NCBI GenBank assembly: GCA_002721755.1 | Contig: PBLL01000003.1 | Span: 1 to 54,081, forward strand | DNA length: 54,081 bases | Direction of reading: 5' to 3' | DNA from: Actinomycetota bacterium | GTDB taxonomy: Bacteria; Actinomycetota; Acidimicrobiia; Acidimicrobiales; MedAcidi-G1 | Position numbers and translations under genes: made by a program | Shown here: positions 13,440 to 21,310 of the stretch, one piece after another | How positions within the stretch are numbered: position 1 is the first letter of the stretch | How the letters are laid out: every line of letters starts with the position of its first letter | Notes under the pieces: generated by a model | Seen by the model: the letters and a program-made list of their open reading frames with translations, nothing else | What the model was told of the DNA's origin: nothing | Database searches by the model: none

Positions 13440-14015
13440 TTACTCATTTTTATTCCATGGATTTCGAAAAAAATCCTTGATAAGAGATTCATAATATTCA
13501 AGAGGATTTGACTTATAAGAAGGATCAAAAGCAGGAGAATCATATTCGGCACAAAACTCTTCGCAGTAGTCATAATGCTCATTTTCTTTAAATGCATCTC
13601 TAGCATTTCGATTGCCGCCCAAATGATGCCAAAAATAGTAACCCTGAAATACTCCATGATTTTCTACCATCCAATGGTTTGCAGTTGAAACAAAGGGTTT
13701 AAGTATTGCTGCTGCAACATCAGGATGATTATAAGGCGTCAAAACATCACCAATATCGTGCAACAAAGCACAAACAATGTATTCGTCATCACGACCATCT
13801 CGTTCAGCCCTAGTTGCAGTCTGAACACTGTGCTCCAATCGGTCTACAGGAAAACCACCATAATCATTTCGTAATAACTCAAGCTGTTCGATAATTCTTC
13901 CCGGTAGAGCAGCCTCTAATTCACCCCTCTGAGACATAATTAGCGCCCAGTCTTCTTTTGTGGAATCAGCGAAAGAAGTAAAAGCCGCTCTTGGCAATTG
14001 TTCAATCTCCTCCAT
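13440..14015 (-). CDS. HD-domain protein, PhnZ-like mixed-valent diiron oxygenase candidate
   Basis: A 191-aa HD-superfamily protein with LEHSVQTA, CALLHDIGD, YNHPDVAAAI and VENHGVFQG, giving candidate metal ligands H, H-D, H and H, and an Asp in AEYDSP near the C-terminus. Length, the Tyr in NDYGGF before the first His, and the spacing of ligands resemble PhnZ, the HD-type diiron oxygenase of phosphonate breakdown, as I recall that sequence. The PhnZ gating Glu three residues after the Tyr is not obvious here, so the substrate likely differs. The start at ATG 14013-14015 is supported by AGGAGG four nt upstream. A plain phosphohydrolase remains possible. It is divergent from the proline racemase cluster. 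Confidence 0.75.
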   Translation of the reverse strand: MEEIEQLPRAAFTSFADSTKEDWALIMSQRGELEAALPGRIIEQLELLRNDYGGFPVDRLEHSVQTATRAERDGRDDEYIVCALLHDIGDVLTPYNHPDVAAAILKPFVSTANHWMVENHGVFQGYYFWHHLGGNRNARDAFKENEHYDYCEEFCAEYDSPAFDPSYKSNPLEYYESLIKDFFRNPWNKNE

Positions 14016-14105
14016 TTGGCCTCCTAAGCTCAAAATAAAAATCGTAGATCAGAAACTTTAAAATATGCTTATTCACAAAATTTTATTCAAATACTTTCTG
14101 AACCC

Positions 14106-14209: not shown

Positions 14210-15202
14210 ATGACTTTTGATTTCATAACTAACATTGAAAGCTGTGATTACCACACAGCAGGCGAACCTTTCAGAATAGTAGACGCGGGTCCAATGGAAG
14301 GTACAACTGTTATTGAAAGACGTTCCTGGGCAGAAAAAAACCTGAATGAGCTTCGTAAGTTTTTAATTCATGAACCTAGAGGACATGCAGACATGTACGG
14401 TGGTTTTATTGTTCCACCCGATGACACCGATGGAGATTTAGGGGTTGTTTTCTTTCATGCAGATGGTTTTAGTACAGCATGTGGACATGGCACAATCGCT
14501 TTGGTCACTTGGGCAATAGATAGTGGTTTAATTAAGTCAGACTCAGATGTGATTGAAGTCACTGTTGATGTGCCTTCAGGGAGATTATTCACAAAAGCAA
14601 AAATGCTCAATGGGAAAGTTGAGAGTGTTTGTTTTCAAAATGTCCCCTCCTTTGTAAGCGCAGAAGACATAGAAATTCGTACGAAATTTGGAACTATAAC
14701 TATCGATATTTCTTTTGGAGGAGCTTTTTATGCCTCAGTTCTATGTGATCAATTAGATTTGAAACCAATTTCAAAAAACCTAAATGATTTGATTGAAATA
14801 AGCAGAGAAATAAAAACAAATACAGAAAATCTAGAATTTGCCGAACATCCTTCCGACAAAAGACTCTCAGGAATATATGGTTCAATCTTCTATGAAACTC
14901 TGGAAGAAAACCCGCTGAAGCAACGCAATGTAACAATTTTTGGAGACGGACAAGTAGATCGATCTCCATGTGGTTCTGGTACATCTGCCCGCCTTGCTTT
15001 ATTACATGCAAAGAAACAAATTGATTCTGGCGAACCATTTTTTAACTTAGGGATTGCCGGCGGCGTATTTACTGGACAAATAATCGAGCAAAAAGGAAAC
15101 ACTGTTGTTACATCAGTTGAGGGCTCTGCTTACCGCTACAGCAATAATTCTTTTAGTCTAGATCCTCGTGACCCAATTGGTTTTGGATTTAATCTCAGAT
15201 GA
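14210..15202 (+). CDS. Proline racemase-family enzyme (proline racemase / 4-hydroxyproline 2-epimerase type)
   Basis: The 330-aa protein has the family layout of two pseudo-symmetric halves with one catalytic residue each: Cys at about 91 in TACGHGTIAL and Cys at about 254 in DRSPCGSGTSA. Both cysteines present indicate a cofactor-free racemase or epimerase. Trans-3-hydroxyproline dehydratases of this family usually have Thr at the second position. Substrate candidates are proline or hydroxyproline. Its stop overlaps the start of the ornithine cyclodeaminase-family gene (ATGA overlap), so the two are coupled, suggesting a joint imino-acid degradation route. Confidence 0.9.
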   Translation: MTFDFITNIESCDYHTAGEPFRIVDAGPMEGTTVIERRSWAEKNLNELRKFLIHEPRGHADMYGGFIVPPDDTDGDLGVVFFHADGFSTACGHGTIALVTWAIDSGLIKSDSDVIEVTVDVPSGRLFTKAKMLNGKVESVCFQNVPSFVSAEDIEIRTKFGTITIDISFGGAFYASVLCDQLDLKPISKNLNDLIEISREIKTNTENLEFAEHPSDKRLSGIYGSIFYETLEENPLKQRNVTIFGDGQVDRSPCGSGTSARLALLHAKKQIDSGEPFFNLGIAGGVFTGQIIEQKGNTVVTSVEGSAYRYSNNSFSLDPRDPIGFGFNLR

Positions 15203-16122
15203 AAGAAATTCCTCATTTTTCCGCAAATGACATCTTTGCATTTGGAATAGGAAAAACAATTTCAGCTCTAAAAAATTTTCCAACAACAAACAATCCGCCT
15301 ATTCCAAGAGAACATATTCCTTTGGATAAGGGAGAAGACTTTCTTCTTATGCCAGCGGTTTCTCCAACAGGTCTCGGAATAAAACTTGTTACTGTCATGG
15401 ATAAAAATCCAAATCTCGGTCTTCCACTGGTCCACGGTTTCTATCTCTACCTTGACAGAGTGACCGGTATACCAAAAGCAACTTTTGACGGTTCAGCCTT
15501 AACAACACTTAGAACACCGGCAGCATCAGCAGTTGCAACGGAAATACTCTCACTGGAAAATGTAGAAACTCTAGGAGTTTTTGGTACAGGAGTCCAAGCA
15601 CGTAGTCACATAGAAGCAATGCTTTTTGTTCGTCCTGGAATCAAGAAAATTTTAGTTTGTGGACGTTCTCTAGAATCTGCAAAAAAATTTATTGCCTCTT
15701 TAAATGTCGAAGGACGTGAAATCATTGCTGGCTCACCTGAAGAAACTGCTTCCTGTAATTTAATTTGTGCATGTACTAGCTCTAAAACACCTGTTATACC
15801 AACTGAATCAGTAAAACCAGGAGCACATTTAAACTTGATTGGATCCTTCTCTGAAGCTCAAAAAGAGGCAGACACAAAGCTTATAGAAAACGCCAAAATA
15901 TACGTGGATCATAGAACAGCAGCTAAAGAAGAAGCTGGAGAGCTTATAAATGCAGAACTCGAAAGTACATGGTCTTTTGATGACATACAAGGAGATTTTT
16001 TGGAATTAGTTGTTGGAGAAACCAAGAGAAATGACCCTGAAACCATAACGCTGTTCAAATCAGTTGGACTTGCTGTTTGGGATCTAATGGTTGCTGAAAT
16101 GATCTATAACGAAACGAATTAA
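15199..16122 (+). CDS. Ornithine cyclodeaminase / mu-crystallin family protein
   Basis: The 307-aa protein has the Rossmann nucleotide-binding motif LGVFGTGVQARSHIEA, preceded by GIPKATFDGSALTTLRTPAASA, both characteristic of the OCD/mu-crystallin family. Members include ornithine cyclodeaminase, alanine dehydrogenase and delta1-pyrroline-2-carboxylate (or delta1-piperideine-2-carboxylate) reductase. Translational coupling to a proline racemase-family enzyme favours a ketimine reductase in proline or hydroxyproline metabolism, where these families commonly pair. Motifs alone do not prove the substrate. Confidence 0.88.
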   Translation: MKEIPHFSANDIFAFGIGKTISALKNFPTTNNPPIPREHIPLDKGEDFLLMPAVSPTGLGIKLVTVMDKNPNLGLPLVHGFYLYLDRVTGIPKATFDGSALTTLRTPAASAVATEILSLENVETLGVFGTGVQARSHIEAMLFVRPGIKKILVCGRSLESAKKFIASLNVEGREIIAGSPEETASCNLICACTSSKTPVIPTESVKPGAHLNLIGSFSEAQKEADTKLIENAKIYVDHRTAAKEEAGELINAELESTWSFDDIQGDFLELVVGETKRNDPETITLFKSVGLAVWDLMVAEMIYNETN

Positions 16123-16197: not shown

Positions 16198-18435
16198 ATG
16201 AAAGACGATTCTTCGAGTTATTCAGATCCAGTTGATGAAGAACAAAACGAACTTTCTTCGTTGACAGCCGTAGTCATCGATGAAGAAGAGAGAAAAGAGT
16301 TACGAGAGAAAGACTCAGAAGTAATTTTTCCCGATGATCTTCTACCAGGTGTCAAATCAGAAGGAATAAGTCTAAAAAAAGGTCTCCGTCTAGGTGGAGG
16401 TGCAGCCACATTTTTTACTCTTGCTCTGTTATCCGGTTTAGAAGAACTTCAAACAGCAGCAATAAATGTCTTAGCGCCAGACATTAGAGACACTTTTAAT
16501 GTCAGTGATGGAACAATTACATTTATAGCAAGCTCATCAGCAGCCTTTGTAGTTTTAGGTTCGCTACCTATGGGTTGGATGGCAGATCGACTAAAACGAA
16601 TCCCAATAATTGGTTGGGCTAGTTCGATATTTGCTGGAATGGTTTTCCTTTCAGGAGTTGCAGTTAATGCTTTTATGTTCTTCTGGGCGAGATTTGGTGT
16701 TGGAATAGCGAAAGCAAGTACAATCCCAGTCCATAGTTCTGTAATCGCAGATACCTATCCAATAGGTATTCGTGGAAGGCTCGGTTCTTTAACTGGGATA
16801 ATTAATAATGGATTAAGAGTGGTAAGCCCAGTTCTTGTAGGGGCAATCGCTCTTATTGCAGACGGCTCAGATGGAATAAATGGCTGGAGATGGTGTTACT
16901 ACTTACTTGGAATCCCTGTTGTAATCGTTGCTTTATACTCGTTTTTTTTAAAAGAGCCAGAACGAGGAAAGTGGGAAAAAACGGATGTCCTAGGGGAATC
17001 TTTCATTGAAAATAAACCCTTACCAATTTCATTGGAAGCAGCATTTTCCCGTTTGCTGCAAATAAAAACCGTTAAAACCGTTGTGGTCGCTTTTAGCGCA
17101 CTCGGTTTCGGATTATTCACAGCACCTGTCTTAGAGAACCTTTTTCTTGAAGACGAGTTTGGACTAGATGCATTTGAAAGAGGTATTAGTGGAACAGCTG
17201 GTGGCGTCTTCGCTGTTATCGCTCTTATTTGGGTAGGACCAAAATTTGACCGACTTTGGCGAGAGAATCCTACGCGAACTCTACACTTAATTGGTCTCGG
17301 AATTGCCTTGGCAGGATTACTTAAACCTATTCAATTCTTTATGCCAAATGTCGCTCTATTTGTAATAACTGGAGTTCCCAGTTTGATTCTCCTTACAGCA
17401 TCTTTTGCGATGGTAAGCCCCATTCTTCAAGCAATCATTCCCTACCGTTTACGAGGTAGTGGTTCAGCTTTAGTTACCCTCTACATTTTTTTCATCGGAG
17501 CAACCGGTGGAGGTTTAATTTCTCTTCTCTTCACAGACACCTGGGGTCCACGAGTCACTGTAATAGTTCTCACTCTCCCTTCTTCAGTAATTGGCGGTTG
17601 GATAATGTACAGAGGAGCAAAATTCCTAAGAAACGACCTTTCGTTAAACGTTCAAGAATTATTTGAAGAACAAGAAGAGCAGCGCCGCAGATCAAGCTCA
17701 AAAGAAAAAATCCCTGCACTGCACGTAAACAATGTTGACTTTTCTTATGGCTCGGTTCAAATCCTTTTTGATATTTCTCTAGAAGTCGAAAAAGGTGAAA
17801 CACTTGCTCTTTTGGGAACAAACGGAGCTGGAAAATCAACCCTTCTCCGGGTCATTAGTGGTCTCGGTGTGCCTAAAAGAGGAGTTATAAGACTGAATGG
17901 GCAAACAATCACTTATGCCTCTCCAGAAAGACGAGCCAAACTTGGTATTCAACAGTTGCCTGGTGGAAATGGAATTTTCAGTGATATGACCGTGCATCAG
18001 AATCTCGTAATGGGAGCTTTCATTCATAAAGCAAATAAAGAAGATGTTCAACAAAGAATCAACAATGTTTTCGAACTTTTTCCAGAATTAAAGAACCTGA
18101 AAAAACAAAAAGCTGGATCATTATCGGGCGGACAACAACAAATGTTGTCACTTGGACGAGTTTTGCTCCATGAACCAGAAATTCTCCTGATTGATGAACT
18201 TTCTTTGGGTCTCGCTCCAACAGTTGTACAAGACCTATTAAACATTGTCGAACGACTTCAAGATAAAGGACAAACAATGATTGTCGTCGAGCAGTCATTA
18301 AACATTGCTCTTTCAATCGCCGATAGAGCAATCTTCTTAGAAAAAGGACAAGTACGTTTCGAAGGTTCCGCACAAGAACTATCTAAACGTGACGATCTAG
18401 CACGAGCTGTTTTCCTCGGTGATGAGGGCGGATGA
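16198..18435 (+). CDS. MFS permease fused to LivF-type ABC ATPase
   Basis: A 745-aa fusion. Residues 1-60 are polar and acidic. Residues about 65-480 form a 12-segment-like MFS permease with motif A (GWMADRLKRIP) and a conserved GIGKAS/ARFGVGIAKAS stretch. Residues about 500-740 are a complete branched-chain amino acid (LivF) ATPase: Walker A GTNGAGKST near 540, signature LSGGQQQM, Walker B ILLIDELSLGLAP and the H-loop-equivalent VVEQS. LivF normally is a free subunit pairing with LivG. The downstream gene supplies LivH, LivM and LivG in one chain and overlaps this gene by its last bases, so both products probably form one transporter. The role of the MFS half is unknown. Confidence 0.9.
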   Translation: MKDDSSSYSDPVDEEQNELSSLTAVVIDEEERKELREKDSEVIFPDDLLPGVKSEGISLKKGLRLGGGAATFFTLALLSGLEELQTAAINVLAPDIRDTFNVSDGTITFIASSSAAFVVLGSLPMGWMADRLKRIPIIGWASSIFAGMVFLSGVAVNAFMFFWARFGVGIAKASTIPVHSSVIADTYPIGIRGRLGSLTGIINNGLRVVSPVLVGAIALIADGSDGINGWRWCYYLLGIPVVIVALYSFFLKEPERGKWEKTDVLGESFIENKPLPISLEAAFSRLLQIKTVKTVVVAFSALGFGLFTAPVLENLFLEDEFGLDAFERGISGTAGGVFAVIALIWVGPKFDRLWRENPTRTLHLIGLGIALAGLLKPIQFFMPNVALFVITGVPSLILLTASFAMVSPILQAIIPYRLRGSGSALVTLYIFFIGATGGGLISLLFTDTWGPRVTVIVLTLPSSVIGGWIMYRGAKFLRNDLSLNVQELFEEQEEQRRRSSSKEKIPALHVNNVDFSYGSVQILFDISLEVEKGETLALLGTNGAGKSTLLRVISGLGVPKRGVIRLNGQTITYASPERRAKLGIQQLPGGNGIFSDMTVHQNLVMGAFIHKANKEDVQQRINNVFELFPELKNLKKQKAGSLSGGQQQMLSLGRVLLHEPEILLIDELSLGLAPTVVQDLLNIVERLQDKGQTMIVVEQSLNIALSIADRAIFLEKGQVRFEGSAQELSKRDDLARAVFLGDEGG

Positions 18436-18436
18436 A

Positions 18437-21310
18437 ATGTATAAGTCTTTAGAAGTTCTTTTACCAGAATCATCACAACTGCTTGCTGTATGGACTACAC
18501 GCCAACTCTGGTTTGATGGATTAGTTAATGGAATGGTGTTTGGCTTACTGGCTCTTGGAATCGTGCTGATTTATCGTTCGACTCGTGTAATAAATCTTGC
18601 AGTAGGAAATATGGGATTACCCGCCGTAGGACTTATGGCATTAATGGTTATCAACTATGGATTTCCTTACTGGGTCGCTTTACCAATCGCCTTACTGGTT
18701 GGAACTCTAGTTGGATCAATTATTGAACTTGCTGTTATTCGTCGCCTTTTCAATGCACCTAGAGTAATCGTTTTAGTTGCAACAATTGGAATAGCACAAT
18801 TAATGCAAGCAATTTTGGCTGCATATCCCGATATTGAAAGCAAAAGAGGAGTCCGGTTTCCAGTACCAATTTCTGGAAAATGGAACGATGTTTTCGGACT
18901 TCGAATTACTGGTCCAAAATTGACAATCCTAATTATTGTGCCCCTCTTAACCATCGCTCTTTCTTGGTTTCTAAATAAAACAATATTTGGACAAACAGTT
19001 CAAGCCTCCGCAAATAACGCTGATCTAGCAAAATTGTCGGGAATAAAACCAAAAGTAGTTTCACTTTTTGTTTGGACAGTAGCTGGGACACTTTCAAGTG
19101 TTTCACTTCTTCTCCTGTCTGGTAGTAGAGGTTCACTAACTGGAATTACAAACCTTGGTCCTAATACCATGACTAGAGCTTTAGCGGCAGCAGTTATTGC
19201 TGGAATGTCTTCATTTCCACGAGCTCTAATAGCCGGAATAGCTATAGGGGTTGCTCAAGCTCATGTTCAATTCATTTTTCTAGACCAAGTTGGTCTTATC
19301 GATTTCATACTTTTCTTGGTGGTAGCAATTGCAGTCGCATTTCAAAGTCGCTCTTCTGGTGCGGAGGAAAGCTCTTTTTCTTTCAGTCCAAGAAGAAAAC
19401 CAATCCCTGAAAGACTTAATCAATTTTGGTGGGTTAGAAATTTATCTTCTGTGACTCTCTCACTATTATTACTTTTCGCCCTAGTCCTTCCATTTATCGT
19501 CACTTTACCCTCGAGACATCTGCTCTACGCTAGTGTCCTAGCATTTGCCATTTGTGCAATTTCTCTTACTGTCGTTACAGGTTGGGCCGGTCAATTATCC
19601 TTAAGCCAAATGGCGTTTGCTGGTATAGGGGCACTATCAGCTGCTGGATTTAATCGTGGTTTAGATTTGGGTATTGGTTTTGGTGAAAAATGGCATCTTT
19701 TTTCAATTTCTTTACCCAAATTTCCATTTTTAATTTCAATGCTTTTAGCAAGTGTGGTAGCGGGTATTTCAGCAGCAATCATTGGACTTGGTGCATTACG
19801 CGTAAAAGGCCTTCTATTAGCAGTTTCAACATTTGCTTTCGCTTTAGCAGCTTCACAATACATTTATCGACGCCCTGTTCTTAGTGGCGGATATAACCAA
19901 AGCGTTCCTTTCCGAAGAGGAAATTTTGGTCCTATTGAATTAGCAAGTCAGAGATCCTATTACTTCATTTGTCTCGGAGCTTTAGTTATTACTCTTTTTC
20001 TAATAAATAAACTGAGAAAAAGTGGTATAGGAAGATCAATAATAGCTGTAAGAGAAAATGAAAATACTGCAGCTGCATACACCGTAGTACCACACAGAAC
20101 GAAATTGATTGCTTTCTCTTTAGCAGGATGTTTAGCGGGTCTTGGAGGTTCTCTTCTAGGTGGTTTAGTCCAGAATATTCCTTTCACTGAACGATTCTTT
20201 ATGATTAGCAATTCACTAAAAGTCGTCTCAATGATTGTAATTGGTGGACTCGGAACTCTTATGGGCCCAGTTATCGGATCAATGTGGGTAATTGGATTAC
20301 CAGCCATTTGGCCAGACAATGATCTCGTTCCACTTTTCACATCGAGTATCGGTCTCCTAGTGCTCCTGTTATATTTCCCAGGCGGGCTAGTACAAATCGC
20401 ATATTCAGCCAGAGACACCTTATTGAATTGGGCAGAACGAAAACTTCCAATTGCTCCAATCAAAACAACAACCAAACCACCTGAATCAATAAGAAAACAA
20501 AGCGAACCTTTTACAGTTTCTGGAACTGTTCTGGAAACCAAAAATGTTTCAGTTTCATACGGGGGTCTCATTGCAGTTAATAACGTAGATATAAACGTAG
20601 GTTCTGGAGAAGTTGTAGGACTTATTGGAACCAATGGTGCTGGAAAATCAACACTTATGAACGCAATCGGAGGTTATGTCTCTTCAACTGGAAATGTCAC
20701 TCTATTAGGTGATGATGTTACCTCATTAAATGCTGCAAAAAGAGCTCGCAGAGGTTTAGGACGAACTTTTCAAGCTGCTCAACTTTTCCCTGAGTTAACA
20801 GTTAGAGAAACCGTGCAAGTAGCACTTGAAGCTAGGAACCGCACCCGTCTATTACCTACTGCTTTATCACTACCAAATGCAACACGTAATGAAGTTAAGA
20901 AAACTAATCAAGCTGCAGAATTGATCGACTTTTTAGGATTAGGTAGATATGCAGACTCATTCATCGCTGAGCTTTCTACCGGAACAAGAAGAATAGTTGA
21001 GTTAGCCGGTCTTTTAGCTTTAGATGCAAAAATGTTATGCCTCGATGAACCAACCGCTGGAATAGCCCAACGAGAAACCGAAGCTTTTGGTCCACTCCTA
21101 AAACAAATACAACAAGAGCTTGGTGCGTCAATGCTAGTTATAGAACATGACATGCCAATGATAATGGCACTTTCTGACCGTGTTTATTGCCTAGAAGCAG
21201 GAACTGTTATATCTGAAGGTGAACCTTCTAAAGTTAGAAACGATCCAATAGTTATAGCTAGCTATTTAGGAACAGATGATAGAGCAATAAGTCGCAGTGA
21301 CATAAAATAA
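18437..21310 (+). CDS. LivH-LivM-LivG fusion, branched-chain-type ABC transporter
   Basis: About 957 aa in three parts. A LivH-like permease comes first (GLVNGMVFGLLALGIVLIYRSTRVIN), then a LivM-like permease beginning around residue 310 with the typical TGWAGQLSLSQMAFAGIGA. Last is a LivG-like ATPase with Walker A GTNGAGKST near 730, Walker B MLCLDEPTAGI and an ABC signature varied to LSTGTRR. Canonical systems encode these as three genes plus LivF and a periplasmic LivK. LivF is fused to an MFS protein just upstream, and no LivK-like binding protein is in the window. I place the start at ATG 18437 with AGGG upstream; in-frame GTG 18419 or ATG 18422 would lengthen the overlap with the previous gene. 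Confidence 0.92.
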   Translation: MYKSLEVLLPESSQLLAVWTTRQLWFDGLVNGMVFGLLALGIVLIYRSTRVINLAVGNMGLPAVGLMALMVINYGFPYWVALPIALLVGTLVGSIIELAVIRRLFNAPRVIVLVATIGIAQLMQAILAAYPDIESKRGVRFPVPISGKWNDVFGLRITGPKLTILIIVPLLTIALSWFLNKTIFGQTVQASANNADLAKLSGIKPKVVSLFVWTVAGTLSSVSLLLLSGSRGSLTGITNLGPNTMTRALAAAVIAGMSSFPRALIAGIAIGVAQAHVQFIFLDQVGLIDFILFLVVAIAVAFQSRSSGAEESSFSFSPRRKPIPERLNQFWWVRNLSSVTLSLLLLFALVLPFIVTLPSRHLLYASVLAFAICAISLTVVTGWAGQLSLSQMAFAGIGALSAAGFNRGLDLGIGFGEKWHLFSISLPKFPFLISMLLASVVAGISAAIIGLGALRVKGLLLAVSTFAFALAASQYIYRRPVLSGGYNQSVPFRRGNFGPIELASQRSYYFICLGALVITLFLINKLRKSGIGRSIIAVRENENTAAAYTVVPHRTKLIAFSLAGCLAGLGGSLLGGLVQNIPFTERFFMISNSLKVVSMIVIGGLGTLMGPVIGSMWVIGLPAIWPDNDLVPLFTSSIGLLVLLLYFPGGLVQIAYSARDTLLNWAERKLPIAPIKTTTKPPESIRKQSEPFTVSGTVLETKNVSVSYGGLIAVNNVDINVGSGEVVGLIGTNGAGKSTLMNAIGGYVSSTGNVTLLGDDVTSLNAAKRARRGLGRTFQAAQLFPELTVRETVQVALEARNRTRLLPTALSLPNATRNEVKKTNQAAELIDFLGLGRYADSFIAELSTGTRRIVELAGLLALDAKMLCLDEPTAGIAQRETEAFGPLLKQIQQELGASMLVIEHDMPMIMALSDRVYCLEAGTVISEGEPSKVRNDPIVIASYLGTDDRAISRSDIK

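Follow-up and report, generated by a model that had tools for sequence, protein, structure and literature searches.

The ABC and MFS superfamilies, both among the largest groups of transporters, are regarded as distinct in mechanism. Importers of the Liv/HAAT type, as known from E. coli and Ruegeria pomeroyi, are composed of the permeases LivH and LivM, the ATPases LivF and LivG, and the binding protein LivK. In this family, the binding protein (SBP) delivers the solute to the LivH-LivM channel, and ATP hydrolysis by the LivF-LivG pair drives the opening of that channel. The corresponding operon of Ruegeria is unfused and has the gene order SBP-permease-permease-ATPase-ATPase. Liv modules joined in a single chain also occur and are annotated as "branched-chain amino acid ABC transporter ATP-binding protein/permease".

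Among MFS proteins, the best structural matches to the protein described here are the Spinster transporters, including human Spns1 and Spns2 and HnSpns of Hyphomonas neptunium. In HnSpns, Glu129 serves as the proton master switch, Arg42 binds the substrate, and Asp87-Arg91-Asp142 constitute a cytoplasmic relay (PMC9440201). MFS fusions recorded in TCDB include the sensor kinase-MFS family 2.A.1.34 (PMC3924187), which likewise joins an MFS unit to a large soluble partner; in the present case the MFS unit is joined to the subunit that powers a primary transporter. An MFS-ABC case is not mentioned in those portions of the Saier-group papers on fusions that were covered, and no fusion of an MFS unit with LivF or another ABC protein turned up in the open-access full texts searched. 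An earlier listing of MFS-LivF as a domain architecture, in TCDB or InterPro for instance, is possible.

Architecture of the Locus

The window, meaning the whole stretch of 54,081 nucleotides of Acidimicrobiales DNA that was analyzed, comes from a marine actinobacterium and carries two adjacent genes in which the modules of a Liv importer and an MFS transporter are packed into two polypeptides (Table 1). Both ORFs proposed in an earlier note on this DNA, P0001 (16198-18435) and P0002 (18437-21310), are present as it described them. P0001 is a single unbroken chain of 745 aa that consists of a 12-helix MFS module (Pfam MFS_1 at residues 76-436, 112 bits) followed by a LivF ATPase (ABC_tran at 524-667, 99 bits, with a LivF/UrtE-type profile spanning 508-741). 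The ATPase retains an intact Walker A (GTNGAGKST), signature (LSGGQ) and Walker B (LLIDE), has Gln at the H-loop position (VEQ), and finds its best solved match in 1ji0. P0002, of 957 aa, holds LivH, LivM and LivG in one chain, as indicated by two BPD_transp_2 domains followed by ABC_tran (714-874) and BCA_ABC_TP_C (924-948).

Table 1. Features of the MFS-Liv locus and its upstream neighbors (window positions)
Feature	Position	Strand	Details and evidence
Proline racemase-family and Pyr2C reductase/ornithine cyclodeaminase-family genes	14210..16122	+	Upstream; outside the conserved system
MFS module of P0001	16198..17667	+	Residues 1-490; 12 TM helices within residues 70-474; N-terminal cytoplasmic FPDDLLPG motif; motif A relay D130/R134/D185; TM4 R165 and K172; MFS_1, AlphaFold2, structural match, conservation
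Continuous helix, TM12 into conserved cytoplasmic MFS-LivF linker	17548..17694	+	Residues 451-499; AlphaFold2 secondary structure
LivF-type ATPase domain of P0001	17713..18420	+	Residues 506-741; profiles, motifs
LivH-type permease domain of P0002	18437..19366	+	BPD_transp_2; UrtB-type profile over 25-298
LivM-type permease domain of P0002	19424..20416	+	BPD_transp_2 at 367-618
LivG-type ATPase domain of P0002	20525..21274	+	Walker A GTNGAGKS; variant signature LSTGTRR; H-loop IEH

Of the parts that characterize a Liv/HAAT importer, the locus contains a pair of ATPase domains of the LivF/LivG type, in which Walker A, signature and Walker B motifs are present, and two BPD_transp_2 permease domains corresponding to LivH and LivM. 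The two ATPases reside on separate chains, as the earlier note had it. The overlap that it described between the ORFs does not occur from the ATG of P0002 at 18437, which lies one base beyond the TGA stop of P0001 (18433-18435), and arises, by 17 nt, only if the longer GTG start at 18419 is used. Relative to the familiar importers, whose LivH, LivM, LivG and LivF modules are all shared here, the system has two polypeptides rather than four, carries an additional MFS module on LivF, and has its candidate SBP, of the Peripla_BP_6 type, encoded elsewhere in the genome. It differs from the annotated Liv fusions in combining three Liv modules in one chain and in pairing that chain with an MFS-LivF protein.

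Authenticity and Distribution of the Fusion

The MFS-LivF fusion was found at full length and free of internal stops in independent MAGs, a single-cell genome and isolates. Dozens of Acidimicrobiia genomes and two Streptomycetaceae have it intact, followed directly by LivHMG, and cultured relatives with a copy include Yinghuangia and Embleya. In Embleya sp. NBC_00888 it lies on the large replicon; in a tblastn search of a plasmid collection, Embleya alone among the matches listed possessed MFS-LivF, the others having LivF or LivF plus LivG without an MFS module. A lost stop or frameshift at the joint, introduced by assembly or annotation, would be the trivial explanation, and it is already refuted for practical purposes by dozens of independent genomes whose fusions, at 32-99% identity, run without interruption. 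The earlier note had looked to such an interruption, or to separate halves in all close relatives, as evidence against its proposal; the independent genomes show no stop or frameshift at the joint, and the halves are clearly not separate genes in all close relatives. Since many actinobacteria keep the same weld, it must be genuine and is probably of use.

In the window's own family, sampled through 48 genomes, the close matches have the layout of the window, here termed type I. This layout occurs in eight of the nine genomes of the window's genus, the ninth being 69% complete, and elsewhere in the family in 6/6 genomes of g3, all but one of g5, 1/7 of g4 and none of g2. LivHMG lies directly 3′ of type I fusions wherever the locus extends far enough, save for two divergent copies whose short flank gave no match and whose longer loci (L136 and L137) do carry LivH-LivM-LivG. 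An ordinary MFS protein would be a separate polypeptide without an ATPase; a sample drawn from across the phylum gave 29 MFS matches at E<=1e-20 (the window's own counted), of which 27 fall in LivF-fused frames, and no Liv neighbors were detected beside the two unfused ones (L113/L192 and L127/L135). One record, "Terriglobia bacterium isolate ALOHA_A2.0_1" (L036), has the same neighborhood and near-identical match values as an Acidimicrobiales single-cell locus (L037), and is probably a mislabelled or contaminated MAG.

Sister Layout, Origin and Selection

The same five modules are also packed in a second, common layout (type II), in which a LivH-LivM chain lies directly upstream of an MFS-LivF-LivG chain of ~1,000 residues, with the MFS-LivF joint retained in either packing. 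The type II MFS modules are a diverged set, with an identity of about 24-31%. Examples include L069, L070, L071, L072 and L073, among others, and L069 has a Peripla_BP_6 gene directly downstream. In a LivF tree that included 19 unfused LivFs from five genomes, a small unfused sample, the type I and type II proteins each formed one group and jointly formed a single clade (SH-aLRT 100). Since all the fused LivFs fall in one clade, the tree suggests that the weld probably arose once.

Comparison of the window with congeneric genomes gave dN/dS ratios of 0.012-0.027 for the MFS part and 0.026-0.061 for LivF, which are rough values because dS is near saturation. Judging from these ratios, purifying selection within the genus acts more strongly on the MFS part than on LivF; over the wider family, it is LivF that is better conserved.

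Fold and Key Residues of the MFS Module

AlphaFold2, run on an alignment whose rows were taken from the window and the genome loci, with none from the plasmid collection, predicted a complete 12-TM MFS fold (mean pLDDT 82.6, pTM 0.76) in which TM12 runs on as a single helix into the LivF domain. Within this linker, D480 is invariant and E487, L488 and E490 are nearly so. With motif A also in place, the earlier claim that a complete MFS unit is attached to a primary transporter is borne out by a conserved and non-artefactual fusion.

The nearest solved folds are those of Spns1 (Z 40.6) and Spns2 (Z 40.1), with MCT1 (38.7) and NorA (38.3) close behind. At the level of sequence, four solved proteins were found, and of these 6e8j alone, which we take to be HnSpns, can be aligned over the greater part of the module. 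Its similarity is weak (E 5e-5), and GlcP scores equally over half the length. The relay D130/R134/D185 matches D87-R91-D142 of HnSpns and is retained in nearly all type I proteins (D130 in 33/36, R134 in 36/36 and D185 in 36/36). The module differs from the Spinster proteins in having an ABC ATPase fused to it and in two key positions. In an ungapped alignment of TM4, Glu129 of HnSpns corresponds to K172, and the proton-switch glutamate is thereby replaced, with Lys at this position in 29 of 36 type I proteins (Lys or Arg in 30) and Arg or Lys in 12 of 18 type II proteins, two of which have Glu. The position of Arg42 is occupied by a neutral residue in most type I proteins.

The unfused relative L135 has Val at the Glu129 position, and for that reason we do not claim that fusion caused the loss of the Spinster glutamate; by the same token, the loss does not prove that the module is coupled to ATP. 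Changes at E83 often accompany changes at K172, and the cases are too few for a salt bridge between the two to be claimed.

Candidate Binding Protein

No Peripla_BP_6 match was found on the window's contig. The earlier statement that no LivK gene is nearby holds for the window; elsewhere in the genome, a search uncovered an orphan candidate at G000:C30:42260-43783. It encodes 508 residues with a lipobox-like LLVAC and a Thr/Ala/Pro-rich linker, and its AlphaFold2 model has a Liv-type SBP fold (pLDDT 88). Homologs of this SBP are encoded within <=6 kb of 31 of the 54 type I fusions in 35 genomes, as against 0.64 expected by chance. In the window's family the SBP gene is unlinked, and fusion and SBP ortholog nevertheless tend to occur together (27 genomes with both, 5 with the fusion only, 2 with the SBP only and 14 with neither; Fisher p 2e-6, for genomes taken without phylogeny correction). 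For example, the only g4 genome with either one, G775, has both. No close ortholog of the SBP was found in G246 or G770, two well-assembled genomes of the same family that have the fusion, and other Liv-type systems of the window's genome could use the orphan protein. On the sequence evidence, the lipoprotein is a candidate for the missing binding protein of the P0001/P0002 importer.

Genome G383 has eight operons of type I, seven of them with an SBP alongside, and an apparent type II operon in addition. At one of the eight, L185, the frame is 673 residues long, but its MFS part has diverged so far that the window's MFS does not match it. Loci L184-L190 of this genome amount to a paired expansion of MFS-LivF operons and binding-protein genes. 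With most of the eight operons accompanied by an SBP, substrates probably differ between the copies.

Gene Neighbors and Substrate

A proline or hydroxyproline transporter had been suggested on the basis of the racemase-family and Pyr2C reductase genes, which lie close upstream on the same strand in the window. This suggestion has fared poorly, and we regard it as improbable. The genes in question occur beside the fusion in congeners (L034-L041) only, being absent from that position in L055 and L057, and the probable variation in substrate among the G383 copies also speaks against it. In other genera the neighbors include acyl-CoA dehydrogenase, AMP-ligase, SDR or amidohydrolase genes with no common theme, and a neighbor scan for a shared substrate theme returned common families only (SDR, amidohydrolase, AMP-binding).

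The gene at 14210-15202 has trans-3-hydroxyproline dehydratase and proline racemase as its best profiles, with scores far below the cut-offs. Its product has both catalytic-type cysteines (ACGHG and SPCGSG), which fits an epimerase or racemase and not a dehydratase. Farther upstream, 13440-14033 encodes an HD-domain protein with a weak likeness to phosphonate-degrading HD oxygenases of the PhnZ type.

The best PDB profile match of the SBP family is 4n03, titled as the SBP of a fatty-acid ABC transporter. A fatty-acid substrate is only a lead, because the best-matching stretch covers just the N-terminal part. On its own contig (L138:8261-13983 of G000:C30), the orphan SBP gene is situated directly upstream of methylmalonyl-CoA mutase-like and MeaB genes, a possible hint as to the fate of the solute it binds.

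Possible Roles of the MFS Module

The explanation we favor, at about even chances, is a compound transporter in which an SBP-dependent Liv-type importer has a permanently attached, probably transport-competent Spinster-like MFS module. The orphan lipoprotein would hand a small solute to the LivH-LivM channel of the two-chain complex, and the LivF-LivG pair would open that channel by ATP hydrolysis. As a single predicted helix connects LivF to the complete MFS transporter on its N-terminal side, importer and MFS unit would be present in a one-to-one stoichiometry, and the MFS unit probably works on the same solute or a metabolically linked one.

How far the two transporters influence each other is where the alternatives diverge. 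It is conceivable, although unlikely, that they are independent activities joined for co-expression or stoichiometry, such as ABC uptake combined with MFS efflux of a product, with no mechanical coupling. Both modules do look complete, and a fusion of neighboring genes is the simplest origin; against this, MFS with LivF is the one constant pairing, the remaining modules being divided between the chains in two ways, and the model shows the junction as a helix with conserved residues and not a flexible linker. Decidedly unlikely, in our estimation, is that the MFS module is a non-transporting regulator or scaffold, i.e., a transceptor or stabilizer that would respond to a solute or lipid and adjust the importer through the helix. 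With K172 standing where Spinster proteins have their glutamate, the unit could have lost transport, and the predominance of basic residues at this position in both layouts, the loss of the substrate-binding arginine in most type I proteins, the entry of a single helix into LivF, and conserved positions in the central loop and linker would all suit such a role. The glutamate swap, however, is not tied to fusion, as L135 illustrates, and very strong purifying selection that includes the gating relay suggests continued cycling.

Because the relay and the whole MFS domain are under purifying selection, transport is likelier than mere scaffolding, and conservation indicates that the MFS unit of the compound transporter is most likely transport-competent. 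Mechanical or regulatory coupling between it and the importer is plausible from the structural model, given that the joint is a predicted helix and the sole joint kept in both layouts. A stronger form of coupling, with the MFS unit driven or gated from the LivF/LivG ATPase cycle through the TM12-LivF helix, seems to us quite doubtful.

Significance

There is a small chance of something categorically new, should ATP prove to drive the MFS cycle: the system would then be a hybrid, its MFS transporter lacking the usual Spinster proton switch and drawing its power from ABC ATPases. At a more practical level, actinobacterial proteins that annotation would label simply as an MFS transporter or an ABC ATP-binding protein can belong to a larger machine with an identifiable SBP. 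Because it unites a primary with a secondary transporter by a covalent link that is old and strongly conserved, the MFS-LivF system offers a natural setting in which to ask whether an MFS transporter can be gated or driven by ATP, and why one cell would bind both transporters together one-to-one.
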